A DNA stretch of 22,263 nucleotides from the IMG/VR virus record IMGVR_UViG_3300010883_005498, positions 1-22,263 of that record, one strand, 5' to 3'. Source of the stretch: a virus. The notes beneath the pieces are model-generated. The model was not told the DNA's origin. It did no database searches and saw nothing but the letters and a program-made list of their open reading frames with translations. The translations under genes were made by a program, and so were the position numbers. Below are positions 4,835 through 20,694 of the stretch, in pieces (the first letter of the stretch is position 1; each line of letters begins with the position of its first letter).

Positions 4835-5239
4835 ATGTGGATATATGAAGATAAAGAGTTTCAACCAGAAGACGAGTTCTTGGAGCAATACCAAGGATTC
4901 GTCTACTGTCTAACCGAGACAAGTACTGGTAAAAAGTATATTGGTAAGAAGTTTTTCTGGAAACCCAAGATACTCCCTGTCACAAAAACAAGAAAGAGAC
5001 GCAAACGAACAAGAGTCCAATCCGATTGGCGGACGTACTATGGTTCGTCTGAAAAGGTAAAAACACTGTATGAAGGGGGTCAGGACTTCCGTAGAGACGT
5101 TCTACGACTCTGTCGTACAAAAGGTGAGTGTTCATACTACGAAGCGAAACTACAATTTGAATATGATGTTTTACTGAGTGATGAATACTATAATGAGTTT
5201 ATAGGTTGTAAGATACATGCAAAACATATTAAGTCGTGA
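4835..5239 (+). CDS. GIY-YIG-like nuclease domain protein
   Basis: This 134-aa protein has a GIY-YIG-type core: F22-V-Y24 stands for the first motif, Y35-I-G37 for the second about ten residues later, then K38/K39 and a basic stretch (about 44-61), and E103 in a helix at the position of the metal-binding glutamate. The segment SDWRTYYGSS and the C-terminal LSDEYYNEFI are typical of phage members of this group. No DNA-binding module such as an NUMOD repeat is attached, so it may be a free-standing DNA-processing or former homing enzyme. It begins 19 bases after the zinc-ribbon gene, and its end overlaps the next gene by 23 bases. The first motif departs from canonical GIY, so activity is uncertain. 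Confidence 0.65.
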   Translation: MWIYEDKEFQPEDEFLEQYQGFVYCLTETSTGKKYIGKKFFWKPKILPVTKTRKRRKRTRVQSDWRTYYGSSEKVKTLYEGGQDFRRDVLRLCRTKGECSYYEAKLQFEYDVLLSDEYYNEFIGCKIHAKHIKS

Positions 5240-6443
5240 TGCAATTTCCCGTGGTCGAGGATTCGTCTTCGATAATGTTGGAAAACCCGAAATATGCAGA
5301 GAAATAAATAAGATTAAAAACCTGTTGTTAGAGACAGGTGCAAGAAAAGGTGACATAGTAACTATCAATATTATGGTAGTTAATATACGTCACGTTGCTG
5401 CCATATTTGCGTGTGCAGAATTGGGACTGCCATTAATTATCCTCAACAGTCCTGCAACAAAAGAATCCCTACCATTTACTAAACTTGCACTCCATGGCCC
5501 AAGTGCCTGGCACATCTACGATTCTGAAAACCCTACCAATCTCGTTTATGATGGTCTTCATGATGAGATGATAAAACAATATGGTGGAATAGGTATTGAC
5601 GTACAGGATGCATACAATCCGCATGATATAATAGGTGACGATGTACTACCGAATGACATATTCCTAATAAGTTCTACCAGTGGAACAACCAAAGCGTCTA
5701 GACCTGTAAAGTTTTCACATAAAGAAACCATGAAGATTGCCAAACGAAATATAGAGGTGTTCTGGTTTGGACACGATGCAAAGGTTATCCATTCAAGAAA
5801 TCTACACCATGCATCCGCATTATTGACCCACCTACTACCCGCACTTATGAATGCATACACACATAGTTCTTTTGCACTAGGTCATGATGGGACACATGCA
5901 GAAGACTATAATTATCTAAAGGGTCTTAAAGATTTACATGATAATCCCCCATCTAATATAATGATGCCTAATAAGAAAGTTCTCTTTGATTTTCTAGAGA
6001 CGTTTGGAGGGCCGTTCATGAGAACCGTTAATATTAACATGTGTGGATTCCTATTGGACGCAGAGTTTGTTGACCTTGCAAGAGAATACAATGTTTGTTT
6101 TCAGTCACATTACGGTAGTATTGATACCGCAATCCCTCTTTTAATAAACCGTGTAGACAAAGACTCATTCCATATTCCTAATTCATTAGGAGTACTATGT
6201 GATGACTTTTACGAGACAACCCTTGAGGATGGACGTATGAAGGTGGAACACCCCTTGTGGGACGCACCAAGGTATATGGACGATGAGTTACAGGAATTTG
6301 ACGGACAATACATTCTAAAAAGTAATCGTCAAGTTGATATAGATATGACGGGGATTCTTGATTTGTCCCCATTCTCCCACGACACTAAAATTGATTACGA
6401 ACAATTACGAGGACATTTGCATGTTACTAGTAGCAGGGTGTAG
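5217..6443 (+). CDS. ANL-superfamily adenylate-forming enzyme lacking the C-terminal lid domain
   Basis: This 408-aa protein carries the signatures of acyl/aryl-CoA synthetases and NRPS adenylation domains. It has a phosphate-binding loop S153-T-S-G-T-T-K (core motif A3), an SHYGSIDTA segment near 297-305 (A5 region) and a D-rich stretch followed by GQYILKSNRQVDI near 363-375 (A7/A8 region). Typical enzymes run to 500 or more residues; here the C-terminal lid with the catalytic A10 lysine is missing, because the frame ends and the next gene begins. It may therefore adenylate a carboxylate and pass it on without forming a CoA ester, or use a partner. It overlaps the nuclease gene by 23 bases and the SGNH-like gene by 23 bases. 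The substrate cannot be deduced. Confidence 0.72.
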   Translation: MQNILSRDAISRGRGFVFDNVGKPEICREINKIKNLLLETGARKGDIVTINIMVVNIRHVAAIFACAELGLPLIILNSPATKESLPFTKLALHGPSAWHIYDSENPTNLVYDGLHDEMIKQYGGIGIDVQDAYNPHDIIGDDVLPNDIFLISSTSGTTKASRPVKFSHKETMKIAKRNIEVFWFGHDAKVIHSRNLHHASALLTHLLPALMNAYTHSSFALGHDGTHAEDYNYLKGLKDLHDNPPSNIMMPNKKVLFDFLETFGGPFMRTVNINMCGFLLDAEFVDLAREYNVCFQSHYGSIDTAIPLLINRVDKDSFHIPNSLGVLCDDFYETTLEDGRMKVEHPLWDAPRYMDDELQEFDGQYILKSNRQVDIDMTGILDLSPFSHDTKIDYEQLRGHLHVTSSRV

Positions 6444-8431: not shown

Positions 8432-8854
8432 ATGCAGAAAGAAGTATTCGAAATCTTTGAAGATTTCACGAAACTCAAACAACGGAAAGACAAAGTAGCT
8501 TTCCTAAAAGAACAAGGGACATTGTACCCTGCCGTCAAAGACATAGTCCGTGGTGCATTCGACCCCCGACTAAAGTTCGTCTTACCCGAAGGAAAACCAC
8601 CTTACTCCCCAAACAGACCTGAGTCTGTGCCATCATCACTGAGAAAACTGCACAAACAGTTCGGTGACTATGTGGAAGGTGCAAGGTCAACCGCAATGGG
8701 TAAAATTAAAAGAGAAACAAGATTCATTCAACTATTAGAGAGTATCCATGCAGAGGATGCCCTAATCGTATTGGATATGGTGGCAAAGAAACCACCTGTA
8801 AAAGGATTGACGAAAAAGATAGTAGAGGAGGCATTCCCGAACCTATTGTCTTAG
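8432..8854 (+). CDS. DUF6433-like conserved phage protein
   Basis: This 140-aa protein has the landmarks of a family found across marine T4-like phages: an N-terminal helix (VFEIFEDFTKLKQRKDKVAFLKE), then VKDIVRGAFDPRLKFVLPEGKPPY, a KIKRETRFIQLLESIHAEDA core and a KGLTKKIVEEAFPNL end. I match it to DUF6433 by memory of the pattern. No catalytic motif is evident. It follows the second leader repeat and a GAGGAAAA ribosome binding site, ending the block of small genes that starts at 7300. The family name is moderately sure; function is unknown. Confidence 0.82.
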   Translation: MQKEVFEIFEDFTKLKQRKDKVAFLKEQGTLYPAVKDIVRGAFDPRLKFVLPEGKPPYSPNRPESVPSSLRKLHKQFGDYVEGARSTAMGKIKRETRFIQLLESIHAEDALIVLDMVAKKPPVKGLTKKIVEEAFPNLLS

Positions 8855-8908
8855 TACTTTGTTATGTTGTTACGCTAAACTCACAACAACAACCCGTAAG
8901 GAGCAAAT

Positions 8909-9085
8909 ATGCCAAGAAACCAAATAGAACGTTTAAAGAATGATAGTCGAGAACTTGATAACTACATCCACCGTCTCAAGAAGAAGGGAAGAGACAACCT
9001 TGCTCATAAGTTATCGATTAAAAAATCATTCTTAAATCAGACTATTACCGAGTACGAAAATTTGGACACTCAAATTCTAGCATAA
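8909..9085 (+). CDS. 58-aa basic coiled-coil protein
   Basis: The ATG at 8909 has a strong AAGGAG ribosome binding site, and the frame closes at TAA 9083-9085. The product is basic and rich in Lys, Arg, Leu and Asn (MPRNQIERLKNDSRELDNY, IHRLKKKGRDN, later SFLNQTITEYENLD), with heptad-like spacing of Leu/Ile that suggests one or two helices forming a hairpin or coiled coil. Comparable short coiled-coil proteins occur between early genes of marine phages. No function is known to me. It is separated from panD by a 66-base gap holding a hairpin. Confidence 0.75.
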   Translation: MPRNQIERLKNDSRELDNYIHRLKKKGRDNLAHKLSIKKSFLNQTITEYENLDTQILA

Positions 9086-9109
9086 AAAGGTAGGTGGTTA
9101 AATCTCGTG

Positions 9110-9130
9110 GGGGGTGCGTAATGCACCCTC
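9110..9130 (+). promoter_or_regulatory. hairpin in the panD leader
   Basis: GGGGGTGC (9110-9117) and GCACCCTC (9123-9130) can pair over 8 bp, including one G-U, around a GTAAT loop. It ends 21 bases before the panD ATG. There is no T run behind it, so terminator function is unlikely; an mRNA-stability or translational control element is more plausible. Confidence 0.5.
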
Positions 9131-9151
9131 AACGTCAATGGAATTATTATT

Positions 9152-9478
9152 ATGATAACAATGCTAAAATCCAAAATCCACGGTGCTACAGTCACGCAAT
9201 GTGACTTACATTATGAAGGTTCAATCAAAATTGACCGCAACTGGATGAAAAAAGTCGGTATACTCCCCAACGAACAAGTAGATGTTGTCAACCTAAATAC
9301 AGGTGGACGATGGACAACCTATGCAATTGAAGGTTCTGTTGCAGAGATAGGTGTCAATGGTGCGGGTGCAAGACTTGCCGTAGAAGGTGACGAACTAATC
9401 ATCATGGCGTATTCTTTAATGTCCCCGTTAAAAGCGAAATGGTTAACCCCAAAAATACTTATCCCAAAGGATTTATAA
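9152..9478 (+). CDS. panD: aspartate 1-decarboxylase proenzyme
   Basis: This 108-aa protein reads along the whole E. coli PanD. PanD decarboxylates L-aspartate to beta-alanine, the precursor joined to pantoate to make pantothenate and hence CoA. The pyruvoyl precursor site is intact: HYEGS, with G23-S24 as the self-cleavage point and S24 becoming the pyruvoyl group. K8, H10, Y21, R53, T56, Y57 and the VNGAGA segment (N69) match the known active-site and binding residues. The protein is about 18 residues shorter than E. coli PanD, the loss being at the C-terminal tail outside the catalytic core. The ribosome binding site is weak (TGGAA), with a hairpin upstream. The TAA overlaps the next ATG (TAATG). 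As a phage-borne metabolic gene it is unexpected; homology is clear, activity is inferred. Confidence 0.93.
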   Translation: MITMLKSKIHGATVTQCDLHYEGSIKIDRNWMKKVGILPNEQVDVVNLNTGGRWTTYAIEGSVAEIGVNGAGARLAVEGDELIIMAYSLMSPLKAKWLTPKILIPKDL

Positions 9479-9714
9479 TGCCTCTATATACAATCGTAAA
9501 TAAAAAAACTAAGAGAACACAAACAATGATGTGTTCTTACGTTTCTCTTGAAGAAAAGTTGAAAGAACTAGGAGATGAGTGGAGTCAAGAAATTGGTGCT
9601 CCTGCCATAGTATCTACAACTGGTAATGTTGTTAACAAAACAAGTAGTGATTGGAAGAATCACTTGTCAAATATTCAGAAAGGTGCGGGTAGAGGGAGTA
9701 ATATCAAGACATGA
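9478..9714 (+). CDS. FmdB-like small phage protein without zinc cysteines
   Basis: I take the ATG at 9478, which overlaps the panD stop (TAATG) and has AAAGGA upstream, rather than an earlier in-frame ATG inside panD. The 78-aa product starts MPLYTIVNKKTKR and has a central IGAPAIVS segment and a C-terminal SDWKNHLSNIQKGAGRGS. This order resembles the phage version of FmdB-type proteins (MPxYxF... at the start, later SAPAIV, later xxWxxxLxxI). The CxxC zinc knuckles of bacterial FmdB are absent; the only cysteine is C19. Phage versions are often found near phoH in marine T4-like genomes. The function is unknown. Confidence 0.75.
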   Translation: MPLYTIVNKKTKRTQTMMCSYVSLEEKLKELGDEWSQEIGAPAIVSTTGNVVNKTSSDWKNHLSNIQKGAGRGSNIKT

Positions 9715-10397
9715 CAATGAAGCGTCTCAAGATAGACCATTTACATACATACGATGCAATAACATCTAATCAACAAATTGCATACGAAGCATTCAAAGAC
9801 GGAGACCATCTGGTTCTCTGTGGTTCTGCGGGTACTGGTAAAACCTTTGTTGGTATGTACCTTGCACTACAGGATGTCCTTGATAAGTCGTATGACCAAG
9901 AGAAACTTGTCATTGTAAGAAGTGTTGTTCCTACCAGAGAGATGGGTTTTTTGCCTGGCAGTGTTGAAGAAAAGATTGCTACCTATGTTGCACCCTATAA
10001 ATCAATTGCAACCGAACTCTTTAATGAGAAGATGGCATATGAGAATCTAGAACAACAAGGAATTATTGAGTTTGTATCAACATCGTTTATACGTGGTACA
10101 ACTCTAGATAACTGTATAGTGTTGGTTGATGAGATGCAGAATCTCACCTTCCATGAACTAGACAGTATCATTACAAGGGTGGGTAAGAATAGTCGTATTA
10201 TCTTCTCTGGTGATTATTATCAGTCTGACCTGAAGTCCAGTTCAGATAAAAAAGGTATCCTTGACTTCATGAACATCATGGAAGTCATGAATCACTTTAC
10301 AACCGTGGAATTTGGATGGGCGGACATCGTTCGTTCGGACTTTGTCAGAGACTATATAATGACAAAAGAAATGGTTGAACGAGGAAACATTAAATGA
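9711..10397 (+). CDS. phoH: PhoH-like P-loop ATPase
   Basis: This 228-aa protein carries a Walker A motif (G38-SAGTGKT-45), an LVIVRSVVPTREMGFLPG stretch characteristic of PhoH, a Walker B motif (VLVDE, 137-141) followed by MQN, and a sensor-like IIFSGDYYQSD segment near 163-173. It is a complete stand-alone PhoH domain of the length usual in marine phages. PhoH proteins bind and hydrolyse ATP and have been linked to RNA metabolism; the link to phosphate starvation seen in bacteria is not established for phages. The ATG overlaps the preceding TGA by three bases (ATGA). A second Met (M3) at 9717 could be the true start, and neither has a strong ribosome binding site. Confidence 0.95.
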   Translation: MTMKRLKIDHLHTYDAITSNQQIAYEAFKDGDHLVLCGSAGTGKTFVGMYLALQDVLDKSYDQEKLVIVRSVVPTREMGFLPGSVEEKIATYVAPYKSIATELFNEKMAYENLEQQGIIEFVSTSFIRGTTLDNCIVLVDEMQNLTFHELDSIITRVGKNSRIIFSGDYYQSDLKSSSDKKGILDFMNIMEVMNHFTTVEFGWADIVRSDFVRDYIMTKEMVERGNIK

Positions 10398-10578: not shown

Positions 10579-11043
10579 ATGAAATTAAGTAAAAACTTCA
10601 CACTCAAAGAGTTCACAAAGTCTATGACTGCGACTCGATTGGGTATCGACAACACACCACAGGGCGAACATCTAGTAGCGGCACAAGAGTTATTCACTCA
10701 AGTCGTTCAACATGTTCGAGACCACTTCGGTATCACCCGTATCAATTCGGGTTACCGTTCTCCTGCACTGAACCAATCCGTGGGTGGTTCTTCAAACTCA
10801 CAACATTGTAAGGGTCAAGCAGTTGACTTGGAATGTGATAAGGCGGATAACCTTGTTGTTGCACAATGGATTAGGGACAACCTAGAGTTTGACCAAATCA
10901 TCTCAGAGTTCTATGTTGAAGGTGACCCCTCTTCGGGTTGGGTTCATGTGACATATGTGAGTCCTGAAGAGAACCGTAAGAAGTGTTTGACCGCATCACG
11001 AGTAAATGGTAAGACACATTATTCGGTTGGTCTGCCTGAGTGA
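10579..11043 (+). CDS. endolysin, M15 family peptidase
   Basis: This 154-aa protein is a peptidase M15 domain of the VanY/Ply type that cuts peptide cross-links in peptidoglycan. Zinc ligands are readable: H76 and D83 in SSNSQHCKGQAVDLE (the SxHxxGxAxD motif) and H123 in SGWVHVTY. The preceding INSGYRSPALN segment is the usual substrate-binding strand, and E110 (ISEFYVE) is placed for the catalytic base. There is no signal peptide, so release through a holin is expected; the 3-TM holin candidate lies far upstream at 1131-1592. It follows the small membrane peptide by one base, and its stop overlaps the GTG of the next gene. It may instead be a virion-borne lysin, but the domain is clear. Confidence 0.88.
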   Translation: MKLSKNFTLKEFTKSMTATRLGIDNTPQGEHLVAAQELFTQVVQHVRDHFGITRINSGYRSPALNQSVGGSSNSQHCKGQAVDLECDKADNLVVAQWIRDNLEFDQIISEFYVEGDPSSGWVHVTYVSPEENRKKCLTASRVNGKTHYSVGLPE

Positions 11044-11543
11044 AACATGTACAGGTGTTTGCAATAGACAATTTTGACAGTCTACAGAAAGAAGCACTAT
11101 TACAAATACCTGTAAGTAACGAACCTGTCTATGGGGACTATGATGTTCATGGAGACCCTACGAAATGGGACTTCGATTCTAAACCATATTCCGATGTTAC
11201 TAGACGAATAATTACCCCTGCAATCAGTAAGTATTGCAAATCGTGGGAATGTATTTCCTGTGCATTAAATACTCTGTGGTATCATGTATATAATAAAGGT
11301 GGCAGTTATATGTCACACACCCACACTCTAGCAAATATGACTGGGGTGATACACTTGTTATTAGAAGATGAAAGAGACTGTACTACTATAGTCGGTTATG
11401 ACGGAAAAATAAAAGAAGGTGAAGTTGTATTATTCCCATCGATGACACCACACAAATCAAATCCAGTTCATGGGAAGAAAATCATTATCGGTTTTAATTG
11501 GGACATGTATTCGGATATGAAAACAGGCGAGGAAGTACAGTGA
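11040..11543 (+). CDS. 2OG-Fe(II) oxygenase-like protein
   Basis: The GTG start at 11040 shares bases with the endolysin TGA (GTGA), giving a 167-aa protein. The N-terminal half is variable. The C-terminal half is a jelly-roll dioxygenase core: H93-T-H95 after SYMS, a TGVIHLLLED strand, GEVVLFPSMTPH with H138 as distal iron ligand, then K147 and IIIGFNWD, where the 2-oxoglutarate-binding residue is expected. The same features occur in the cut gene at the start of the window, so the phage carries at least two. These enzymes hydroxylate diverse substrates; next to glycosyltransferases a sugar or protein target is possible. Its TGA overlaps the GTG of the glycosyltransferase gene, implying coupled translation. 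Confidence 0.7.
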   Translation: MKHVQVFAIDNFDSLQKEALLQIPVSNEPVYGDYDVHGDPTKWDFDSKPYSDVTRRIITPAISKYCKSWECISCALNTLWYHVYNKGGSYMSHTHTLANMTGVIHLLLEDERDCTTIVGYDGKIKEGEVVLFPSMTPHKSNPVHGKKIIIGFNWDMYSDMKTGEEVQ

Positions 11544-12370
11544 ATTTAATATTTCAATACATGATAACAAACGAGGAGACCGAGAAACGGGCTCCAGTTC
11601 CACAATATCCACAAGGTACTAGGTCAGAACTCTATCGTGTAACGGGTGACCTATCCGCAAAGTCGTTTCAAATCTATGCGGATAAGATTGGATGTAAACA
11701 CCAATACTCGACAAAACAAGTATTCACCGAAGGTAAGGTTGGGTCAACTGTGTTGCTCTATGAATGCCTACGTATCATCTATGACCCTATTTACGAACAA
11801 TTTGACAAGATTGCATTCATTGATACTGATATCATCTGTAACACCGAAGAGAACATCTTTGATGAAACTGGTGATTATGAGATTACAGGTGTTCTTGAAT
11901 CTGAAATACGTACTGGTAAAGACGGTGGATACAATACTTGGGATTTCAGTAAGAAGACAAGAGATGCACTGGTAACCAAGTATAAGCGTAATGGTATCCC
12001 ATGTGTCCCCACAGAACCCCCATATCGTCCCTCCTGTATCGCTACCTTTAATACTGGTGTCATGGTATGGACTAAAGAAGCACGTATGAAAGCACGTGAG
12101 AAATTTGATGATTGGTACGAATACATGTCAGATGGGGACAAACACGGTGACCCGTTTTGGATTAACAATGACCAACCATGGTTATCTGGACAGATAATGA
12201 AACACGGATTAACGTGGCAAAGTATCGAACAGAAATGGAATGACACACCTACCCATTGGCCAGATGACAGAGGATATGACATGAATTTCCTCCATTATAC
12301 TGGGGGTGGTAATAAGGTTGTTATGTTGGAAGACTATAAAAAAGGTAAATTTAAGTACTTAAAAGCTTGA
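11540..12370 (+). CDS. glycosyltransferase, GT-A fold (GT8-like)
   Basis: I choose the GTG at 11540: it overlaps the previous TGA and has GAGGAAG at the right distance, whereas the earlier in-frame ATG at 11498 lies inside the oxygenase and adds unrelated residues. The 276-aa protein has the DxD metal/nucleotide-sugar motif (D95-T-D97 after IAF), a FNTGVMVW segment (N171-T-G) that positions the sugar, NNDQPWL (D211) and a C-terminal LHYTGGGNK with H252, as in retaining GT8-type enzymes. It shares this layout with the protein at 17303-18094. Donor and acceptor are unknown. A phage promoter overlaps its stop codon, so the next gene is separately controlled. Confidence 0.82.
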   Translation: MNLIFQYMITNEETEKRAPVPQYPQGTRSELYRVTGDLSAKSFQIYADKIGCKHQYSTKQVFTEGKVGSTVLLYECLRIIYDPIYEQFDKIAFIDTDIICNTEENIFDETGDYEITGVLESEIRTGKDGGYNTWDFSKKTRDALVTKYKRNGIPCVPTEPPYRPSCIATFNTGVMVWTKEARMKAREKFDDWYEYMSDGDKHGDPFWINNDQPWLSGQIMKHGLTWQSIEQKWNDTPTHWPDDRGYDMNFLHYTGGGNKVVMLEDYKKGKFKYLKA

Positions 12371-12395
12371 CAAACCCAGTGTTTCTTGTTATAAT
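12367..12395 (+). promoter_or_regulatory. strong sigma70-type promoter, shared phage family (copy 3)
   Basis: TTGACA (12367-12372) and TATAAT (12390-12395) have a 17-base spacer beginning AACCC and ending CTTGT, as in the copies at 7241 and 7533. The -35 box overlaps the stop codon of the glycosyltransferase. The transcript should start near 12402, which bears on the start codon of the next gene. Confidence 0.9.
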
Positions 12396-12440
12396 AACCA
12401 CATGAAGAAAGAAATACAACTACAACATAAGGAAGAAGAA

Positions 12441-13022
12441 GTGCTAAGTCAGTACCATAAGGTAATATTAACAGACGCAGATGGTGTTCTCCTGAACTGG
12501 GGTTACGCATTTGACGTGTGGATGACCGAGAAAGGTTACACCGCCAAAAGTAAATTAGAATACAATGTCGGTACGATATATGACATTGCACCAGAAGTAT
12601 CAAAAAGATTAGTCAGAGAGTTCAACGAATCTGCCCATATGGGTTTTGTACCTCCGTTAAGAGATGCAATGCAGTATGTCAGAAAGTTACACGAAGAACA
12701 CGGTTATGTGTTCCACTTGATTACTAGTATGAGTAAAGATGAGAACGCACAGAAACTAAGAACAATGAACATTAAGAAGTTGTTCGGTGAGACTGCATTC
12801 GTTAAATTCATCTATCTGGACACAGGTGCAGACAAGGATGAAGTCCTTGCACAGTACAAAGGAACAGGTTATACTTGGGTTGAGGACAAAGTTGAAAACG
12901 CAATTGCGGGTGACAAACAAGGTCTTGACTCAATTGTCATGGAACATGGATACAACATGGACAACCAAGACTATCCCCTAATGAAAAACTGGAAAGATGT
13001 GTACGAATACCTTGTAGGTTAA
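12441..13022 (+). CDS. HAD-superfamily phosphatase-like protein
   Basis: The frame also has an ATG at 12402, but that base is about where the transcript from the promoter at 12367-12395 should begin, so it would be leaderless. The GTG at 12441 has AAGGA 7 bases upstream and puts the catalytic motif at the usual distance from the N terminus; I prefer it (193 aa). HAD motif I is D12-A-D14-G-V-L-L-N-W, motif II is the ITSMS segment (about 96-100), followed by a lysine-bearing ADKDEV region (motif III) and WVEDKVENA (motif IV acid). Such enzymes dephosphorylate nucleotides or sugar phosphates. Placement before the carbamoyltransferase suggests a role in its pathway, but a 5'-nucleotidase is equally possible. 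Confidence 0.8.
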   Translation: MLSQYHKVILTDADGVLLNWGYAFDVWMTEKGYTAKSKLEYNVGTIYDIAPEVSKRLVREFNESAHMGFVPPLRDAMQYVRKLHEEHGYVFHLITSMSKDENAQKLRTMNIKKLFGETAFVKFIYLDTGADKDEVLAQYKGTGYTWVEDKVENAIAGDKQGLDSIVMEHGYNMDNQDYPLMKNWKDVYEYLVG

Positions 13023-13037
13023 CGTATATATAACTAC

Positions 13038-14603
13038 ATGAAAAGATATGTAGGTTACTCCGAGTTTTATCATGATGCCGCACTCGCCATCGTTAATCCC
13101 GATGGTGAAGTTGCTTTCGCATCCCAATCAGAAAGATATAGTGGTCTTAAAATGGATGGTCATATCCATCCGCCTATGTGGGAAATGGTTAATGACGATG
13201 ACCATGTTACCTTCTACGAAGACCTAAACGAACGCATGACAGTCATGGGTGGGCTTAGAACTTTCGGTGGAGCGACATCATTTGAAGAACTCATTGCTAG
13301 AGACTTAAAAGATGGTGACGAAAACCTAACAAGGGCACACACCTCAGAAATTAGAAAACCCATCCACAATCAAGCATCCTATGATAGCTTCAATAAACAT
13401 CATGAAAGTCATGCAGCACTTGGATTCTTTACCCGACCATGGGAATCAAAAGAGGATACAGTAATTGTATCTGTCGATGGTTCGGGAGAAGTAGAATCTA
13501 CTGTAATCTATGACCACAATTTCAAACCCCTCAAAGTTGTTAGATGGCCTCAGTCCTTGGGAAGTCTCTATGGGATGGGTTGTGTTTCAATCAAATTAAA
13601 ACCTTTAAGAGATGAATACATTCTTATGGGTCTTGCTGCATATGGTAAACCTCAAGATGATTTGTATCAAATCTTACACGATTGTTATTACTGGCACGAC
13701 ACACTGGAAGGACAAGATGTTTGGGATAAAATCGATTTTACGGGTGAGTGTATAGCAGATAGTGAACTTGCACATAGAGATTACCAGTTTGAGAAACAGT
13801 TTATAAAATTGGTAAAACTTAGTTATACTAACAGAGAGTCGGATGTCGCTGCAACAGTTCAGAAATTCTTTGAGACAGAGATTTTAAAGATTATGACCGA
13901 AGCACGACAGTATGGTTCTAAGTTAATCTTTACTGGTGGATGTGCTCAAAACGTTGTTGCAAACTCTTTGATACGTCCAATGTTTGATGAGATGCATATT
14001 CCTATTGCACCCAATGATGCGGGTAACGCTCTTGGTTGTGCCGCATACTCATGGCACAAAGAGACAGGTGGAACACACCTAAAGTGGTCACCCTATCTGG
14101 GACACAACATCGAACGTGAGATAGACCCCAAAGAAGTTGCACAATATATCGTAGACAATAAGGTATGTGGAGTTGCAAACGGACGTGCAGAGTATGGCCC
14201 TCGTGCGTTAGGTAATCGTTCTCTACTTGCAGATGTTCGTTTTGATGTCAAGGACACAGTAAACGATATAAAACGCAGACATAAGTACCGTCCATTCGCT
14301 CCTGCAATACTATCAGAATGGGCAGAATATTACTTTGAAGGACACATGGGTGAGTATATGCAGTACACCGCTACTGCAAAACATCCCTATGATTCAGTTA
14401 GTCATGTGGACGGTACTGCAAGAGTTCAACTTGTTAAACCAGACTGTGAGTCTGTATTGAGACAGATTCTAGAAGAGTATTACAAATTAACGGGTGTTCC
14501 AATGTTACTAAATACATCATTGAACATAAGAAATAAACCCATGGTCAATACCGTAGAAGACGCTATTGCATGGGAAGAAAAATATAAAGTAAAGGTATTT
14601 TAA
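13038..14603 (+). CDS. O-carbamoyltransferase (NodU/CmcH/TobZ type)
   Basis: This 521-aa enzyme spans both domains of the family. The N-terminal YrdC/Kae1-like ASKHA domain shows H12-D13, the metal-binding H121-H122-E-S-H125-A motif and VSVDGSGE (D147). Further on there are LMGLAAYGKP, IFTGGCAQN (about 297-305) and PNDAGNALGCA. The C-terminal domain has the diagnostic GRAEYGPRALGNRSLLADVR (about 382-401) and RPFAPAIL. The family makes carbamoyl-adenylate from carbamoyl phosphate and ATP and transfers the carbamoyl group to a hydroxyl, often on a sugar. It lies 15 bases after the HAD gene with no clear ribosome binding site. In this cluster a glycan target is the likely guess; nucleoside or DNA modification cannot be excluded. 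Confidence 0.92.
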   Translation: MKRYVGYSEFYHDAALAIVNPDGEVAFASQSERYSGLKMDGHIHPPMWEMVNDDDHVTFYEDLNERMTVMGGLRTFGGATSFEELIARDLKDGDENLTRAHTSEIRKPIHNQASYDSFNKHHESHAALGFFTRPWESKEDTVIVSVDGSGEVESTVIYDHNFKPLKVVRWPQSLGSLYGMGCVSIKLKPLRDEYILMGLAAYGKPQDDLYQILHDCYYWHDTLEGQDVWDKIDFTGECIADSELAHRDYQFEKQFIKLVKLSYTNRESDVAATVQKFFETEILKIMTEARQYGSKLIFTGGCAQNVVANSLIRPMFDEMHIPIAPNDAGNALGCAAYSWHKETGGTHLKWSPYLGHNIEREIDPKEVAQYIVDNKVCGVANGRAEYGPRALGNRSLLADVRFDVKDTVNDIKRRHKYRPFAPAILSEWAEYYFEGHMGEYMQYTATAKHPYDSVSHVDGTARVQLVKPDCESVLRQILEEYYKLTGVPMLLNTSLNIRNKPMVNTVEDAIAWEEKYKVKVF

Positions 14604-14939
14604 ATGAGCGAAGAAGACGCAAAAATAATCGAAAATAAGGGATACCATCCCGCAGATTCAAATGGAGACGGTAAAGTTTCCGATGCAGAACAGGAAATGT
14701 ATCTGGAGTTCAAACGTAAAGAACTTGATGACCAAGATGCAATGCGGGACGCACAACGTAATATGGCATGGTTTGCACTAGGTGGTATGTTGTTATATCC
14801 CTTTGCGGTAGTTCTTGCAAATCTAGTTGGACTAGACCAAGCGTCTAAGATTCTAGGTGATATGGCAGCGACATACTTTGTCTCTGTTGCAGCAATCGTT
14901 GCTGCATTTTTTGGTACTCAAGCGTATACCAAAAAATAA
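14604..14939 (+). CDS. EF-hand membrane protein
   Basis: This 111-aa protein has a textbook calcium loop: D18-S-N20-G-D22-G-K24-V-S26-D-A-E29, fitting DxNxDGxxSxxE. A charged helix (about 30-54) follows, then two membrane segments, about 55-75 (AWFALGGMLLYPFAVVLANLV) and 88-104 (ATYFVSVAAIVAAFFG). The short basic C terminus ends AYTKK. I recall proteins of this layout in other marine T4-like phages, with no known function. A second holin or a calcium-responsive membrane protein are possible guesses. It starts directly after the carbamoyltransferase stop, and its TAA overlaps the next ATG, so it belongs to the same transcription unit as the modification genes. Confidence 0.8.
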   Translation: MSEEDAKIIENKGYHPADSNGDGKVSDAEQEMYLEFKRKELDDQDAMRDAQRNMAWFALGGMLLYPFAVVLANLVGLDQASKILGDMAATYFVSVAAIVAAFFGTQAYTKK

Positions 14940-15742
14940 TGGAAAAAGTCCGATGGAGAGGTACTTGGGGTGTTGGTGACTTTCAACATGCATTAAACGT
15001 TTGTCATAACTATTGTTTCGATAACAAGATTAAGGTAAACTTGGAGATGCACTGGAGTCATGATGAGAATTACAAACCTCATCCAGATGACCCAGAAACA
15101 ATCGTAGAACGAATGGAGTGGTTACACAATAAGTATCATAGACAAGATGATGTTGTTGTTACACACGTATTTAACTCCGACCTATTCCCCTCTGGTAATG
15201 TCAACCCTGATAAACAAAAACCACGATTCTTCTTTGATTCAAATAAGTTTGACCCAACGAGTGCTCCACCAAATGATTGGATATTCAAACCTGAAGAGTT
15301 TGTAAAGAAGAGACCTAAGATAGTTATATGGACACCCGCATACAATAGTGAACCTCCAAGAAGTTGGAAAAAGTTCTTGACAAAAGATGATTGGTCTGAT
15401 ATAATAAGCTTGTTGCGTTGGGACGGGTGGATACTAGTGGAGCTAACTTATCGAACCCCTATCAAAGATGCATATAAACAGATACAAGAAGCAGACTTCA
15501 TTGTCTGTTATGATGGTATGTGGCATTACATTGCAAGAAACTTTGGTAAACCAATGTACATTCCATCATGGGAAGGTATCACAGATTATAATACTCCTCA
15601 GTGTATAAGAAAACCAAATAGAAATCAAACTATGGAATTCTTTGGAGATGGAGGAGACTCCTTCGAACCCAATATGTCTCTAATGAAGGACAAAGCAGAC
15701 AGATATATAAGAATGTTAAAAGAAAAATATCATGAAAAGTAA
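14939..15742 (+). CDS. glycosyltransferase-like protein (GT-B C-terminal pattern)
   Basis: This 267-aa protein starts at the ATG that overlaps the previous TAA (TAATG). The N terminus RWRGTWGVGDFQHALNVC looks like the first strand-loop of GT-B enzymes. The C-terminal half has QEADFIVCYDGMWHYIARNFGKPMYIP (about 182-208), the pattern seen in heptosyltransferase/GT9-like proteins where donor sugar is bound. WTPAYNSEPPRSW in the middle may form the interdomain turn. It is shorter than usual GT9 enzymes, so it could be a reduced or divergent member. Neighbouring transferases support a glycan role. A perfect promoter sequence lies inside it at 15377-15405. Confidence 0.6.
   Translation: MEKVRWRGTWGVGDFQHALNVCHNYCFDNKIKVNLEMHWSHDENYKPHPDDPETIVERMEWLHNKYHRQDDVVVTHVFNSDLFPSGNVNPDKQKPRFFFDSNKFDPTSAPPNDWIFKPEEFVKKRPKIVIWTPAYNSEPPRSWKKFLTKDDWSDIISLLRWDGWILVELTYRTPIKDAYKQIQEADFIVCYDGMWHYIARNFGKPMYIPSWEGITDYNTPQCIRKPNRNQTMEFFGDGGDSFEPNMSLMKDKADRYIRMLKEKYHEK
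15377..15405 (+). promoter_or_regulatory. possible internal promoter with full sigma70 consensus
   Basis: TTGACA (15377-15382) and TATAAT (15400-15405), 17 bases apart, lie within the coding sequence of the preceding glycosyltransferase-like gene. The near flanks (C before, AA after the -35, AA after the -10) also agree with the phage promoter family, but the rest of the spacer does not. It would supply the radical SAM gene and those after it, from a start about 345 bases upstream of the ATG at 15756. It could be a coincidence of codons. Confidence 0.5.
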
Positions 15743-15755
15743 TAGGTAGTTTTGT

Positions 15756-16718
15756 ATGAAAATAGATAGAGCAGTAATTGAAATTAATGGTGGGTGTAAC
15801 TACTCATGTACTATGTGTCCACAGGATACACGTACTGGTGGAAGACATAAAGACTTTCTCAAGAAGATGGGACTAGAAGAGTTCGAGAAGAATGTTGCAG
15901 ATTGTGCTCAACACGGACTAAGAGTAGTCAACCTAGAAGGTAGTGGAGAACCCACACTAAATAGAAACCTACCTGAATACATTAAGATTGTTAAGAAGTA
16001 TGGTGCTAAGTGTTTCATGTTCTCTAATGGATTCCGTATGCACGGTAAGTTCATGGAAGATTGTGTTGATGCAGGATTAGACTTCTATCGATTCTCTTTT
16101 ATTGGATATAGTCCTGAGAAGTATGATGAGTGGATGAACAATATCATTGGCGGAAACTTTAATCATATTGTAAAAAACATACGTGAAATGAAAGCATACG
16201 TTGATAAGACTGGTTCGGATTGTTCTGTTGCAACCTATCATCTCATTACTGATAATGACAATTTAGACTTTGAACTAGATGCATATAAGAAACTAGTAAA
16301 TGACCTTGGTGTTAAGACTGAGATATGGAAGATGCATAACTGGTCTGGTGTCTATGACCCTAAACAAAATACACGTACTGGTGAAGAGAAAACATGTGGT
16401 AGACCGTTTAGTCCTGACGTTGTTATACGTGCAGGAGGCAGTGACGGTAAGAGAGGTGGTGTCGCACCTTGTTGTCAAGTACTAGGACAAGATGAGAAAG
16501 CAGTCCTTGGTCATACAAGTGAGAATACCATTGAAGAGATATGGAACGGGCCAGAGTATACCAAACTACGTGAAGACCACACCAATAAAACATATCCTGA
16601 CTATTGTAAGACATGCGACTTCCTATTAGATGACCCTGAAGTCTTGGTCTATACCAATCACGAACGTGACTTGATGAAGATGCATGGAACTGAGTTTGAC
16701 TTAAATGATTTCAGATAA
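15756..16718 (+). CDS. radical SAM enzyme with SPASM-type C-terminal cluster domain
   Basis: The 320-aa protein has the radical SAM motif C14-N-Y-S-C18-T-M-C21 that binds the 4Fe-4S cluster, with GSGEPTLN (about 62-69) as the SAM-binding GGE-type strand. The C-terminal part has C214 (TCGRPF), C239-C240 (APCCQVLG), an EEIWNGPEY segment and C284-K-T-C287. This is the SPASM/twitch layout with an extra iron-sulfur site. Relatives modify ribosomally made peptides, alcohols or sugars by radical chemistry. No precursor peptide is evident beside it, so a sugar or glycan target within the cluster is likelier than a peptide. A weak AGGT site precedes the ATG. It overlaps the next gene by 14 bases. Confidence 0.9.
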   Translation: MKIDRAVIEINGGCNYSCTMCPQDTRTGGRHKDFLKKMGLEEFEKNVADCAQHGLRVVNLEGSGEPTLNRNLPEYIKIVKKYGAKCFMFSNGFRMHGKFMEDCVDAGLDFYRFSFIGYSPEKYDEWMNNIIGGNFNHIVKNIREMKAYVDKTGSDCSVATYHLITDNDNLDFELDAYKKLVNDLGVKTEIWKMHNWSGVYDPKQNTRTGEEKTCGRPFSPDVVIRAGGSDGKRGGVAPCCQVLGQDEKAVLGHTSENTIEEIWNGPEYTKLREDHTNKTYPDYCKTCDFLLDDPEVLVYTNHERDLMKMHGTEFDLNDFR

Positions 16719-17310
16719 TGTATGGATGATACAGATACCTGATAATAGGGTATCACAACATTACGCAAGTTTGTGTATCCCAACATGGGACTGTAAAGTA
16801 AATCTATTTGATGCATTCACCCCCACTGCAATGCCAGACTATTTAGATTTTGGTACATTCTGGGGGTCAAGAGAATTTAGTCCTAGTGAAAAAGCAGGGT
16901 TCTATAGTCACCTAGAGTTATGGAAACGGTGTTATACAGAAGACAAACCCATATCAATCATAGAACATGATGTTGCACTACGTAAGTGGCCATTAAAAGA
17001 TATGCCAATCATTGATGACTTCTTTGCGTTTGCAGACTTTATTGATGAGGATGATTGGAAAAACTATTCTACCCGATTCGAAGGACATCCATACTGGGGA
17101 ACAGATGAACCATTATGTCCTGTCACCCATGCATACTATATGACACCTGATATTGCAGAGACTCTACATTCGACTTTATCCAATATGACACTCACCAAGT
17201 TTGTGGATGATTACATGTGGGAGTTTATGGGTAAAGATAAGAATAAAATAGTTAATTACGCCCGTCCTATATACACAGACTGTATTGGAGGAACAATGGT
17301 TCATGCGTAG
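16705..17310 (+). CDS. glycosyltransferase family 25-like protein
   Basis: This 201-aa protein has the central pattern of LPS beta-galactosyltransferase-like (GT25) enzymes: FSPSEKAGFYSHLELWKRC (about 57-75), corresponding to the G-x-x-x-SH-x-x-LW helix, then KPISIIEHDVAL, where the usual ILEDD acidic pair is replaced by E-H-D. Later a WGTDEPLCPVTHAYYMTP strand is typical of the acceptor side. The ATG at 16705 overlaps the radical SAM gene by 14 bases; an internal Met (M8, 16726) is an alternative, and neither has a strong ribosome binding site. Its TAG is overlapped by the next gene (ATGCGTAG). Donor sugar unknown. Confidence 0.72.
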   Translation: MISDNVWMIQIPDNRVSQHYASLCIPTWDCKVNLFDAFTPTAMPDYLDFGTFWGSREFSPSEKAGFYSHLELWKRCYTEDKPISIIEHDVALRKWPLKDMPIIDDFFAFADFIDEDDWKNYSTRFEGHPYWGTDEPLCPVTHAYYMTPDIAETLHSTLSNMTLTKFVDDYMWEFMGKDKNKIVNYARPIYTDCIGGTMVHA

Positions 17311-18094
17311 ATTAATATTTCAAGTATCGGTAGGTAAACCTTCCAAACTATATGAACATTGTATTGATTCAGTCGCAAAGTATTGTGCGAAATATGATAT
17401 CGAACACATTGTATTAACTCAACCCAAACTAAGAATCAAACCTGATATCTTTACCAGTGGACGTAGTGAAGCGTCCTATATGAAATATGGTGGATATCTT
17501 CCTATCTTTGAAAAGGAGAATGCATTTGACTATATTGATAGATTTGAACAAATTGCGATTGTGGATGCCGATATATACATCCGACATGATGCAACAAATA
17601 TATTTGATGACTTTGGTACTGACCACGCATTTGGTGCTGTAGTAGAACGTGAAATGGACATTCAAGATTGGTATGGTGGTAAGATTAAAAACTACTCCGC
17701 TATGCAGTATAGACACCTACATAGTGCGGGTCAAGGTGATTTCAAACCAACCAAATTAGGTTATGAGTTCTTTAACATGGGAATGATTCTCTTGAACTCC
17801 AAACTATTCAAACCATACCTCAAGGGACAAGACCCTCACAGTTTCCTAAACCGTATGGAATTTAAGGACTTTGTAGACGGAGTCGGTGCATACAAGTGGA
17901 GTACTGACCAAACGTTACTAAACTATTTCCTGAAGAAGTATAACATACCTACCAAACATATGGAAGGTAAATGGAATGGACTATTTGGTGCAATCAATAA
18001 TGTAAAAGATTGTAACTTTGTACATTTCTTTCTAAAGGATAAACTCCCCGATGGTGGAGAAAATGTTACCCAGTTGATGAATCAAATTGTATAA
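17303..18094 (+). CDS. glycosyltransferase, GT-A fold (GT8-like), second copy
   Basis: The start is set at the ATG at 17303, with GGAGGA 10 bases upstream; the earlier ATG at 17285 would add a stretch belonging to the GT25-like frame. The 263-aa product starts MRRLIFQVSVG, like the MNLIFQYMIT start of the protein at 11540, and shares its motif order: D88-A-D90 (AIVDADIY), FFNMGMILLN, STDQTLLNYFLKKY and a C-terminal FVHFFLKDK with the metal/phosphate histidine. The two are probably distant paralogues acting at different steps. It ends in a 53-base gap with a late promoter element, so it may close the transcription unit that begins at 12367. Confidence 0.8.
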   Translation: MRRLIFQVSVGKPSKLYEHCIDSVAKYCAKYDIEHIVLTQPKLRIKPDIFTSGRSEASYMKYGGYLPIFEKENAFDYIDRFEQIAIVDADIYIRHDATNIFDDFGTDHAFGAVVEREMDIQDWYGGKIKNYSAMQYRHLHSAGQGDFKPTKLGYEFFNMGMILLNSKLFKPYLKGQDPHSFLNRMEFKDFVDGVGAYKWSTDQTLLNYFLKKYNIPTKHMEGKWNGLFGAINNVKDCNFVHFFLKDKLPDGGENVTQLMNQIV

Positions 18095-18097
18095 ATA
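18090..18097 (+). promoter_or_regulatory. T4-type late promoter element TATAAATA
   Basis: A perfect TATAAATA lies at the very end of the glycosyltransferase gene (overlapping its stop) and opens the 53-base gap before 18148. The distance leaves a leader of about 40 bases with a strong AGGAGA ribosome binding site. No sigma70 -35 box is present, which fits a late promoter. Confidence 0.6.
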
Positions 18098-18147
18098 CTA
18101 GGGACAATACCGTCAAACTTATATTAATAGAGTGATAGGAGAAACAT

Positions 18148-18846
18148 ATGTTAACCCCACAAGAATTTGTGAAGAAAATTCGCAACGAAAACCAACCGCT
18201 ATTTGAAGCGTCTAAGATGAATACTAAGTCGTATTTTGAAGGTGACCTTCCTGAAGAGGAAATGGTTAATCATTTCATTGGTCGTATGGTCAATGAACGC
18301 ATGAACATGTCTGAGATTTGTGATGCAATTGCAAAAGCACCCGATGATACAGACCCTAGAGAGTTAGAACTTCTAACTAAACAAGCAGCAGACGAAGCAA
18401 AACATTACCGTATGGTTCGAGAAGTAATTGAACACATCAAAGGTGAGAAGATTGATGTAGTCCAAGCACTTGAATCAGAAAGAAAGGCAAACACCGCAAA
18501 AGGTGCTGCACTTCTAGAAAAGTATGATGCACAAGAAGATGAGGCAGTCCTTGCCGCATACCAACTTGTTGCAGAAGGACGTGCGGAAGCAGTCTGGAAT
18601 CAGATGGCAGACACTATCGAAGATGACTTCATCTCTTCTCGTTATCGTGAGATTGCGAAAGACGAAGGTTTCCACAGTGCAATCGGTGGATACTCGTTAC
18701 GTAAACTTGCGACAGATGAAAAGACTCAGAGTCGTGTCCAACGTGTTGTTGACGCAATGCGTAAAGACCTCTTTGAAATCTCGTGTAGAAATACAGTAGA
18801 AGCAACAGGTTCAAGACAACTTGTAAACGCTGCTTACGGTTGGTAG
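18148..18846 (+). CDS. ferritin-like di-iron protein
   Basis: This 232-aa, mostly helical protein shows the ligand spacing of a four-helix di-iron carboxylate site: E50 in a first helix, D82-E83-A-K-H86 (ExxH) in the second, E143 or E147 in the third (VAEGRAEAVW) and D172-E173-G-F-H176 (ExxH) in the fourth. It is neither NrdB nor a recognisable ferritin; ligand spacing is compatible with oxygenases or oxidases of the ferritin-like superfamily. The C terminus ends RQLVNAAYGW. It has the best ribosome binding site in this region (AGGAGA) and sits behind a TATAAATA element, suggesting strong late expression. It is followed without gap by the amidotransferase-like gene. Substrate unknown. Confidence 0.68.
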   Translation: MLTPQEFVKKIRNENQPLFEASKMNTKSYFEGDLPEEEMVNHFIGRMVNERMNMSEICDAIAKAPDDTDPRELELLTKQAADEAKHYRMVREVIEHIKGEKIDVVQALESERKANTAKGAALLEKYDAQEDEAVLAAYQLVAEGRAEAVWNQMADTIEDDFISSRYREIAKDEGFHSAIGGYSLRKLATDEKTQSRVQRVVDAMRKDLFEISCRNTVEATGSRQLVNAAYGW

Positions 18847-19413
18847 ATGAAAATAGGACTCACTCAAAGAGTCCTCACGCACAATAAACAAGTTCATGAT
18901 TCTTTAGACCATAACTGGTATAGGTTACTAAAGGGTCATGAACTCGTTCCAATCCCAAATCGTGATGACTTAGATTATGAATCTCTTGCAGAATCTCTAG
19001 ACCTCCTCATTATCACAGGTGGAGGAAACGAGCGTATCCGTATCACCACCGAAGTATCCCTTGCAACAGAAATGTCTGAGTTGGGTAAACCTATACTTGG
19101 TATATGTCATGGTGCATTTTTACTTACGGAAATACTTGGTGGTAAAACAAGGACGGGTAAAGAGAACCACACAGATGTTGACCATCTAGTGTATAAAAGT
19201 GATTCGTGCCATACTGTTTCGTGCCATACTGTGAACAGTTATCACAATATTTGTATTGACAAAGTACCACCAAATAGTGTATCATTGTGTATAGACGATG
19301 ATGGTGATTGCGAGTCTTGGATAAAGGATAATGTTTGTGCAATCGTGTGGCATCCTGAGAGGATGACCATACCCTATATACCTACAGAGATAAAAGAGAT
19401 TATAAGATTATGA
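18847..19413 (+). CDS. class I glutamine-amidotransferase-like hydrolase, gamma-glutamyl-CDP-amidate hydrolase type
   Basis: This 188-aa protein has the class I GATase/peptidase C26 triad: nucleophile C87 in LGICHGAF, then H169 and E171 in VWHPER. The start MKIGLTQRVL with HDSLDHNWYRLL and the later VNSYHN segment resemble the Campylobacter Cj1417-type hydrolases, which release the amide from gamma-glutamyl-CDP-amidate in O-methyl phosphoramidate synthesis. The kinase and cytidylyltransferase partners are not in this window. A PuuD-like gamma-glutamyl hydrolase is the main alternative. Residues 120-129 are a doubled SCHTV just before VNSYHN. It begins right after the di-iron gene stop, and its TGA overlaps the cupin ATG. 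Confidence 0.8.
   Translation: MKIGLTQRVLTHNKQVHDSLDHNWYRLLKGHELVPIPNRDDLDYESLAESLDLLIITGGGNERIRITTEVSLATEMSELGKPILGICHGAFLLTEILGGKTRTGKENHTDVDHLVYKSDSCHTVSCHTVNSYHNICIDKVPPNSVSLCIDDDGDCESWIKDNVCAIVWHPERMTIPYIPTEIKEIIRL
19203..19232 (+). repeat. 15-bp perfect tandem duplication inside the hydrolase gene
   Basis: TTCGTGCCATACTGT occurs twice in direct succession (19203-19217, 19218-19232). It is in frame and adds a second SCHTV pentapeptide to the protein. Perfect identity suggests a recent slippage or duplication event. Confidence 0.95.
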
Positions 19414-20078
19414 AGGGAATGTTAAATATAGAAAATGGTGAAACCTATAAGGTTCGTGATGTATGGAGTTATGACGTTACGGTTACCAAAGACTCAGTCC
19501 AATACCTTGGAGATGAGTTTGAAGGAACAAGTTATCTAATGGGTAAGAATTGTGATATCGATGTGAAAGAAGGATACACCATTCACCGTGGTGATTTTGC
19601 AGGACAGATAGGAAAAGAGTTTCTAGTATCTGGTGAGACATTTGCTCATATAAAATTCTATGGACTATCCATGAATGATGACCGACTGTTTATACCTCAT
19701 GGTCTACCGAAGGGTAATCTATCCTACATGGACGGTGGTACAAACACCACCGCAGTAAATCCTGGCAGACTGGGACTTCCTGTTATTAACTATGTCCACT
19801 TCCCCGCAGGGATGTCACAGACCCTACACACCCATCCAAGTCAACGTGTTGGTCTTATCCTTTCTGGTAAAGGTGAGATTGAACTTGATAATGGTGTAAT
19901 GTTTCCTATTAAAGCAGGGGACTGTTGGGTGATGGATAGAAATGTATTACACAACTTCATGTGTAATCAAGGTGAAGATGTCACCCTATTTGTGTTCAGT
20001 CCTGACTCTGGTACAGGCCCGACAGATGAAATTAACCCATTGAAGGTACGAACTTATGTCGGACAAACAAGAGTCTAA
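19410..20078 (+). CDS. cupin-domain protein
   Basis: In this 222-aa protein the C-terminal half is a cupin: PAGMSQTLHTHPSQRVGLILSG gives the HxH pair (H140, H142), then GEIELDNG, and GDCWVMDRNVLHNF supplies the last histidine (H180). The Glu normally found after HxH is replaced by Gln/Arg (SQR), so the metal site would be three-His or altered. The N-terminal half (about 1-115) is beta-rich and may be a second, degenerate cupin barrel. Relatives include sugar isomerases, epimerases and dioxygenases. The ATG overlaps the hydrolase stop (ATGA), tying the two together. The gene overlaps the next by 23 bases. Confidence 0.78.
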   Translation: MKGMLNIENGETYKVRDVWSYDVTVTKDSVQYLGDEFEGTSYLMGKNCDIDVKEGYTIHRGDFAGQIGKEFLVSGETFAHIKFYGLSMNDDRLFIPHGLPKGNLSYMDGGTNTTAVNPGRLGLPVINYVHFPAGMSQTLHTHPSQRVGLILSGKGEIELDNGVMFPIKAGDCWVMDRNVLHNFMCNQGEDVTLFVFSPDSGTGPTDEINPLKVRTYVGQTRV

Positions 20079-20694
20079 GAAACTAATTATACTCACAGGG
20101 CCACAAGGTTCTGGAAATCATCTATTCAGTAAGGTGTTCAGTTATCATCCCTTGGTAGAGGGATGGAACTTCATGAACAAGTACTGGATACCATCTGACG
20201 AAGAACCCTTTGCAGAGTGTTGGGTTGACCCATCCAAGACAAAGAGTATGTTGACCAAAGACCATGTGGTCGCAAACGTTAGTGTACCATTTGTCTTTGA
20301 TGGTGTCAAACAAATTCCTCAGATACAAGAGGTTGTCTACGAAGCACAAGATGCGGGTTACGAAGTAAAGGTCTGTATCGTAACAAGAGACCGAACCATT
20401 AACGAAGAACAACAACTCAGAGTCCGTAAGGAAGTAACCCTACCTACCGCATTACAGTACTACTACAACCTAGATGCGACTTTAGAATTCATATCACACG
20501 AATCACTCTACCTATATGGTGGTGCGTATCTGAAATGGTTGAGTAAGGTTCTTGACTTTCCGATTGAATATAGTGACGAACGAATATTGAAAGATATCAA
20601 AGAGAACCAGAATGCGAAGTATGTGAAACACGTAGAGGAACACTGGTTGGATGAACACGTATGGAATGGGATAAGACCAAAAAATGAAAGGTAA
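20056..20694 (+). CDS. P-loop sulfotransferase-like protein
   Basis: This 212-aa protein opens with LIILTGPQGSGNHLFSKVF, a P-loop (residues about 15-22) of the form seen in phage sulfotransferase-like proteins rather than in kinases: G-P-Q-G-S-G-N-H instead of GxxGxGKS/T. Without the Walker lysine, PAPS binding through the loop is more plausible than ATP hydrolysis. A VKVCIVTRDRTINEEQQLR segment (about 113-131) fits the second nucleotide-binding strand and arginine region. It overlaps the cupin by 23 bases and the next gene by 11. Paired genes of this kind recur in marine T4-like phages; the acceptor is unknown. Confidence 0.65.
   Translation: MSDKQESKKLIILTGPQGSGNHLFSKVFSYHPLVEGWNFMNKYWIPSDEEPFAECWVDPSKTKSMLTKDHVVANVSVPFVFDGVKQIPQIQEVVYEAQDAGYEVKVCIVTRDRTINEEQQLRVRKEVTLPTALQYYYNLDATLEFISHESLYLYGGAYLKWLSKVLDFPIEYSDERILKDIKENQNAKYVKHVEEHWLDEHVWNGIRPKNER

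Follow-up and report, generated by a model that had tools for sequence, protein, structure and literature searches.

Introduction

Beta-alanine is a building block of vitamin B5 (pantothenate) and coenzyme A (CoA). Aspartate 1-decarboxylase (PanD) is a homotetramer, and the functional roles of its catalytic residues are known from work on the E. coli enzyme. The described system closest to the one reported here is bacterial class II PanD (TIGR00223/PF02261), which our phage-encoded protein resembles in predicted fold, cleavage motif, catalytic residues and equivalog score. It differs from bacterial PanD in being encoded by a T4-like phage, in the glycine that its phage clade carries in an NGAGA loop, in a C-terminus shorter than that of E. 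coli PanD, and in its divergence, none of the 80 best of 576 cellular PanDs exceeding 55% identity.

Viruses are known to carry genes of this pathway. According to an excerpt of a marine virome study (PMC8940887), these include auxiliary genes for pantoate transferase and pantothenate kinase, which share pathway and viral carriage with the gene described here but encode other steps. The main text of that paper does not contain the term panD, nor do those of PMC10980836, PMC11126160 and PMC11128263; in the accessible parts of PMC13233415, PMC13182921 and PMC6893657, the matches to 'panD' were 'Pandey', 'Panday' or 'pandefensome'. Among the matches listed from the open literature, no paper deals with a phage PanD. 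Two annotated phage records, Gordonia phage Jace (gp87, 'aspartate decarboxylase', 45% identity to our protein) and Achromobacter phage 2-1 (panD, 37%), come from unrelated phages and contexts and show that phage panD is not unique to the family described below.

INPHARED contains 15 records with a PanD match, none of which is an isolate of the clade studied here. In one of them, an Acinetobacter record, panD is surrounded by lolB, rplY, pth and tRNA genes and looks like part of a bacterial chromosome; several other panD records in the same collection (hits H1–H12), those that lack annotation, may also be chromosome fragments. Phages that resemble ours through other genes include the Kyanoviridae Phage C48C1, with a DUF6433 protein 55% identical to ours and a weak 28% match to the regulator gene in the same place, and the Methylophilales phage Melnitz, which shares the gp5 OB-fold hub (39%). 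Neither these two nor the cyanomyophages are among the 15 records. What is new here is a viral PanD clade, its two genomic slots, its fixation in a baseplate operon and a loop signature; the kind of enzyme is already known.

The panD gene and its product

The window, meaning the whole stretch of DNA analysed, is an IMG/VR virus record of 22,263 bases. The following features surround or make up its panD gene:

8432–8854, forward strand: DUF6433 phage gene, conserved left neighbour of the slot (Pfam PF20025, E 7e-17; synteny)
8909–9085, forward strand: phage ORF of 58 aa, left border of the panD slot (synteny in phoH loci)
9083–9140, forward strand: conserved hairpin element between the 58-aa ORF and panD (stem in 37/37 elements tested)
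9152–9478, forward strand: panD, aspartate 1-decarboxylase proenzyme, 108 aa (Pfam, TIGR00223, AlphaFold, Foldseek)
9218–9223, forward strand: codons of Gly23-Ser24, predicted self-cleavage and pyruvoyl-forming site (family conservation)
9356–9370, forward strand: codons of the loop N69-G-A-G-A73, with Gly72 as phage-clade signature (loop comparison)
9478–9714, forward strand: FmdB-like small gene (phrog_385), its start overlapping the panD stop (TAATG)
9711–10397, forward strand: phoH (Pfam PhoH, E 8.5e-44; phrog_170, E 5e-81)

An earlier reading of this DNA, made from the sequence only, had described panD at 9152–9478, and this frame, which lies on the forward strand and has 108 codons for amino acids, exists as described. 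Its product matches Pfam PF02261 (Asp_decarbox) with 127.2 bits against a cut-off of 25 (E 3.6e-37) and the NCBIfam panD equivalog TIGR00223 with 107.9 bits against a cut-off of 106, a margin of less than 2 bits. No PHROG family matched it at E up to 0.001. A phmmer search of PDB sequences returned 26 entries, all PanD chains, with M. tuberculosis 2c45 as the best. AlphaFold modelling of the monomer from an alignment of 59 sequences (window, viral and bacterial) gave a mean pLDDT of 96.8, and Foldseek returned 40 matches to this model at E up to 0.001, all of them PanD chains (for example 1pqh, 2c45 and 1ppy). The ten best PDB fold matches, again all PanD, have TM scores (by query length) of 0.92–0.94 and rmsd values of 0.9–1.5 Å, and BFVD viral models yielded no fold match at E up to 0.001. 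We are nearly certain that the window gene encodes a PanD enzyme.

The product has 108 residues compared with 126 in the E. coli chain 1ppy, which bears out the earlier observation of a C-terminal tail some 18 residues shorter; the alignment ends at window residue 105. An excerpt of PMC4537548 states that the E. coli stretch Ala118–Ala126 predicts a need for the activator or maturation factor PanM/PanZ. This C-terminal PanM-binding stretch, a class I feature, is absent from the window protein, which is predicted to be of the PanM/PanZ-independent class II type. Self-processing would be expected because the protein stops short of the Ala118–Ala126 stretch.

The phage and its gene neighbourhood

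The window comes from a T4-like virus of bacteria and carries an intact-looking panD. Analysis of 41 forward ORFs (55 aa or more, overlapping minor ones included) revealed that 37 are collinear with 54.8–76.3 kb of a separately assembled 149-kb phage contig (G002); three of the remaining four have no match in G002, and the ORF at 3–368 matches only weakly, elsewhere. The position among T4-like phage genes beside phoH, as first proposed, is supported, and the TAATG overlap between panD and the next gene is real: the panD stop TAA (9476–9478) and the following ATG (9478–9480) share a base within 9476–9480. That following gene, for which we keep the earlier name 'FmdB-like', has no Pfam match; among PHROG families it hits phrog_385, annotated as 'transcriptional regulator' (E 7e-10).

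The best public record for the G002 terminase is Phage C48C1 (74% identity), a record that gives no host. In C48C1, 78 bases separate a 51-aa ORF (82395–82550) from the regulator gene at 82629, and this ORF has no BLAST match to the 58-aa ORF of the window. For the window phoH, the best listed records are cyanophages, at 52–57%. A cyanophage reading was set aside, since psbA was not found in any of the 13 panD-phage records (window included), though most of these are fragments. The panD phages are probably marine, judging from their kin and from IMG sample numbers.

Elsewhere in the window, the gene at 5217–6443 encodes an AMP-binding (ANL-type) protein that falls just under the Pfam threshold (29.4 against a cut-off of 29.9). 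The region 11040–22263 contains carbamoyltransferase, radical SAM/SPASM, glycosyltransferase 25, class-I glutamine amidotransferase and cupin genes together with ORFs lacking a Pfam match. This modification block may make or modify a glycan or a small molecule.

Two genomic slots for panD

The first slot lies in a conserved order of DUF6433 gene, 58-aa ORF, slot, FmdB-like gene and phoH, followed in closer relatives by an M15 peptidase gene. Searching viral genomes for PanD next to phoH, as the sequence-only reading had suggested, placed panD in the same slot, beside the FmdB-like gene and phoH, in 24 other IMG/VR contigs: 20 from a first IMG/VR search, and L108, L109, L112 and L113 from a scan with an alignment of phage PanDs. 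These last four carry a PanD that resembles the baseplate type (group II) described below. That reading did not regard panD as a common phage metabolic gene; the gene is real and is not a one-off, as it belongs to a viral PanD clade that occupies two genomic slots. With viral genes on both sides of it in independently assembled contigs, this metabolic gene of cellular type is a candidate phage auxiliary metabolic gene.

Presence of panD at the phoH slot varies among relatives. Among the best 80 loci of a phoH-based scan, 29 testable contigs have a phoH closest to that of the window (77–100% identity), and 9 of them carry panD; none of the 50 with a more distant phoH does. L039 was too short to test. 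Relatives without panD and with the same flanks have about 70 bases in the slot (for example L031 and L035). The slot can also hold a methyltransferase-like gene, recognised by eye at L030:3161–3751 and L046:3203–3775, neither of which matches a named PHROG. We regard the phoH slot as an exchangeable cargo site because relatives have it empty or with another gene.

The second slot lies in a baseplate operon. The scan with the phage-PanD alignment (71 loci) revealed 39 contigs in which a sister panD follows a tail protein (phrog_350) and precedes the gp5 baseplate hub, gp25 and gp6; four of the 39 are cut, with one neighbour missing. One example is L120:5989–6366, directly before gp5, and the other 38 contigs are alike. 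Presence in this slot was scored in a gp5 scan, based on an alignment from panD-bearing contigs, for which the best 80 of 280 loci were taken and 12 with less than 1 kb upstream were left out. panD occurs in 33/33 testable contigs with a gp5 at least 57% identical to that of L120, in 0/8 at 45–56% and in 0/27 below. It is fixed in the baseplate-group lineage, being present in every testable close relative. In the three panD-less relatives examined, the gap before gp5 holds small unrelated ORFs, which makes the baseplate slot a cargo site as well. In both groups the gene is single, with one PF02261 match per record in the 12 records searched; four panD-less relatives, possibly fragments, had none.

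Conservation and origin of the phage enzymes

The active site is intact. In E. coli numbering, the catalytic and binding residues of PanD are K9, H11, Y22, R54, T57, Y58 and N72. The Gly-Ser cleavage site and all of the catalytic and binding positions are present in the window protein, as had been read from the sequence, and by analogy with the family cleavage would fall between Gly23 and Ser24. Across the 61 full-length members of the phage clade (25 from the phoH slot, including the window, and 36 from the baseplate slot, with 12 and 32 distinct sequences), K8, Y21, G23, S24, R53, T56, Y57 and N69 are each kept in 61/61, and H10 in 60/61, with Leu in one contig (L007). An alignment of 59 viral and bacterial PanDs, L007 not among them, shows no variation at seven of these positions (K8, H10, G23, S24, R53, T56 and Y57), and Y21 and N69 stand at 90% or more. 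Pairwise dN/dS of panD lies at 0.03–0.23 for 14 of the 15 pairs; the window and L001, which are nearly identical, give 0.29. These values are rough because synonymous distances exceed 1 in several pairs; they indicate that panD is under purifying selection.

Comparison of the loop N69–A73 revealed a signature of the phage clade. Of 72 viral rows, 61 read NGAGA; no cellular row among 110 (108 readable) does, and most cellular PanDs read N-G-A-A-A at the same place. The 11 viral rows without it comprise three truncated fragments (L149, L151 and L152) and eight other contigs (L021, L022, L104, L105, L134, L143, L147 and L148). The clade thus has Gly in place of Ala in an active-site loop.

Trees of these proteins rest on about 120 columns and have many unresolved forks; the cellular rows L168 and L202 are in neither of the two. 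In the first (107 rows), the viral label needs seven changes, through long branches and host-like contigs. Both phage groups (24 rows including L134) fall with three alphaproteobacterial rows, among them Rhodobiaceae bacterium UBA7378, on one branch with support 89/90, the order inside which is left open. In the second (97 rows), 23 phage representatives form a single clade (97/92) with alphaproteobacterial PanD nearest, a result that appears only after removal of long-branched or host-like rows (viral L021, L148, L134, L104, L105, L147 and L143; cellular L270, L262 and L211). L104 and L105 group with Caulobacteraceae, and L147 is placed next to Thioalkalivibrio; these positions suggest that all three are host or prophage DNA. 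L134 groups with the baseplate set in the first tree (96/81), yet has neither the NGAGA loop nor baseplate neighbours. Further panD genes without NGAGA are those of L143 (6001–6315, on a 447-kb contig), L148, L021 and L022, the last with neighbours that look phage-like by eye.

The donor tree that had been proposed at the outset thus points to an alphaproteobacterial-type PanD. We infer an old acquisition from this source, since identity to cellular PanDs reaches 55% at most (80 best of 576 listed). The gene would later have moved between slots, since phages of the L108 type carry a group-II-like PanD in the phoH slot. A recent transfer from a known bacterium is not supported by the same identity value.

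A hairpin element upstream of panD

The 58-aa ORF is followed by a conserved hairpin element regardless of what comes next, be it panD, the FmdB-like gene or some other gene. The element consists of a AGGAGGTGATC-like stretch, TATCTC, a stem of 7–12 bp and then CGT, and relatives have it in the same place (for example L068:1282–1341 and L098:2650–2707); it is absent from L087 and L092. All 37 elements tested have a stem of 7–12 bp after TCTC (mean 9.2 bp), compared with a mean of 5.4 bp in shuffles, 40% of which reach 6 bp. The 37 were drawn from 53 distinct stretches (105 loci), near-copies and odd ones being mostly left out. Whether a stem is G-first or C-first depends on the lineage; stems were scored by script because MAFFT could not join the two kinds.

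In more distant phages the bases before the stem read TAAGGAGGTGATC, which is complementary to the 3' end of 16S rRNA. A spaced pattern of the hairpin matched 2 of 372 loci, since the spacing varies, and a stricter pattern matched seven stretches in IMG/VR; AGGAGGTGATC with two mismatches occurred no more often than by chance in one tile of G002. Neither the window nor five loci had an Rfam hit at the gathering threshold, and 8850–9250 had none at E up to 1. The Pan-motif RNA, considered as a candidate ahead of panD, was rejected on this result and because an excerpt of the paper that describes it places the motif in other phyla (PMC2864571). The element may represent an undescribed phage leader or regulatory RNA; alternatively, it may act as a decoy for the tail of 16S rRNA.

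Proposed role and alternatives

A mechanism is proposed where the PanD chain would be made as an inactive pi-protein that cuts itself between Gly23 and Ser24, with a pyruvoyl group forming at the newly exposed Ser24; the processed enzyme would then decarboxylate L-aspartate to beta-alanine. During infection, host PanC would join beta-alanine to pantoate, and the pantothenate formed would be converted into CoA and 4'-phosphopantetheine. Reliance on host PanC is proposed because neither panB nor panC was found in any of the 13 panD-phage records (window included, most of them fragments), a finding that also disposes of a fuller pantothenate pathway on the phage. Bacteria with PanC would benefit if they have no PanD of their own or if their beta-alanine production falls short; that the phage may raise beta-alanine and CoA supply where this step limits had been suggested in the earlier reading. 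As a whole, this chain, from a self-processing viral PanD to beta-alanine for hosts with PanC and without PanD, seems to us probable rather than well assured. Counted against it are the panD-less relatives with the same flanks, the narrow TIGR00223 margin and the loss of H10 in one relative. Nor is it known that demand for CoA becomes limiting within a short infection.

A survey of 289 Alphaproteobacteria, drawn evenly from the class, revealed PanD in 49. PanC matched in 175 at E up to 0.001, with 168 over the cut-off; setting aside 18 weak matches (E 1e-5 to 1e-3, some over the cut-off) left 157 genomes with a strong PanC, of which 43 have PanD and 114 have no detected PanD. Strong PanC accompanies PanD in 43 of the 49 PanD-bearing genomes, and 126 of the 289 have neither; these absences are upper limits because many of the surveyed genomes may be incomplete. 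In a host with neither enzyme, PanD alone would not yield pantothenate. The control genome of Synechococcus elongatus has PanB and PanC and no PF02261 match. By these counts a phage PanD would benefit many hosts, but there are also many that would gain nothing from it.

An active PanD could instead supply beta-alanine for purposes other than CoA, for example as a carbon source by way of malonate semialdehyde, or for a phage product to which the neighbouring modification genes contribute. The absence of panB and panC is consistent with this, as is the presence in the window of the ANL gene together with the carbamoyltransferase, radical SAM and glycosyltransferase genes of the modification block, and the ANL gene was found in all 14 contigs checked of the 24 with panD in the phoH slot. 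However, it also occurs in panD-less relatives (L033–L035 and L043–L051), which does not support an obligatory partnership with panD, it has no match in the baseplate-group record G008, and no beta-alanine-using enzyme was identified. We consider such a use possible though unlikely.

A broader version of the CoA account holds that beta-alanine supply generally limits phage growth in parts of the ocean, that the old PanD clade owns this step, and that the baseplate-operon enzyme is a core gene which brings a missing step of CoA synthesis into PanD-less bacteria; baseplate-group PanD would then perhaps be made late or even be carried in the virion, and the Ala-to-Gly change in the loop of the clade could be a sign of altered kinetics or substrate. 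A generalization of this reach strikes us as distinctly doubtful.

It is quite improbable that baseplate-slot PanD is a component of the virion or baseplate, structural or as a packaged enzyme, with the window gene as a relocated relative. The constant position between tail protein and gp5 would fit such a role, as would the group-II-like PanD in the phoH slot of L108, L109, L112 and L113. PanD of the other 38 baseplate contigs shares 81–99% identity with the L120 protein, and the tail protein next to it reaches only 41–63% in 30 of 37; but gp6 of the same operon is equally conserved (80–98%), so the conservation of PanD is not peculiar to it. All catalytic residues are kept, as for an enzyme, and the unrelated small ORFs in the same gap of the three panD-less relatives mark a cargo site. 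A YRELL C-terminal tail, which we had considered as a conserved docking device and rejected, is absent in 4 of the 36 full-length members.

That panD is a passenger from a host, without benefit and in the course of being lost, would agree with its patchy presence at the phoH slot (9/29 of the closest testable relatives and 0/50 of the more distant, among the best 80 loci). The low dN/dS, the conserved catalytic set, fixation in the baseplate group and a long divergence from cells, with 55% identity at best among the cellular PanDs listed, all speak against this, and we judge it highly improbable. An assembly chimera or host contamination, which the earlier reading had named among the circumstances that would undo its claim and which the chromosome-like INPHARED records bring to mind, is excluded in practice by recurrence of the same junctions, with phage genes on both sides, in contigs from several separate metagenome samples, by the 24 other contigs with panD in the phoH slot and by the collinearity with G002, and the phage location stands.

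Conclusion

The beta-alanine-forming step of pantothenate synthesis joins the gene repertoire of T4-like environmental phages. Its presence is more than an isolated accident, as panD has become fixed in one uncultured phage lineage and is variably present among the members of another. Since bacteria that have PanC without PanD appear common, the role favoured here, provision of beta-alanine to such hosts, leads to a prediction on which hosts these phages would infect and on vitamin B5 and CoA as a limit that their virus production may face.
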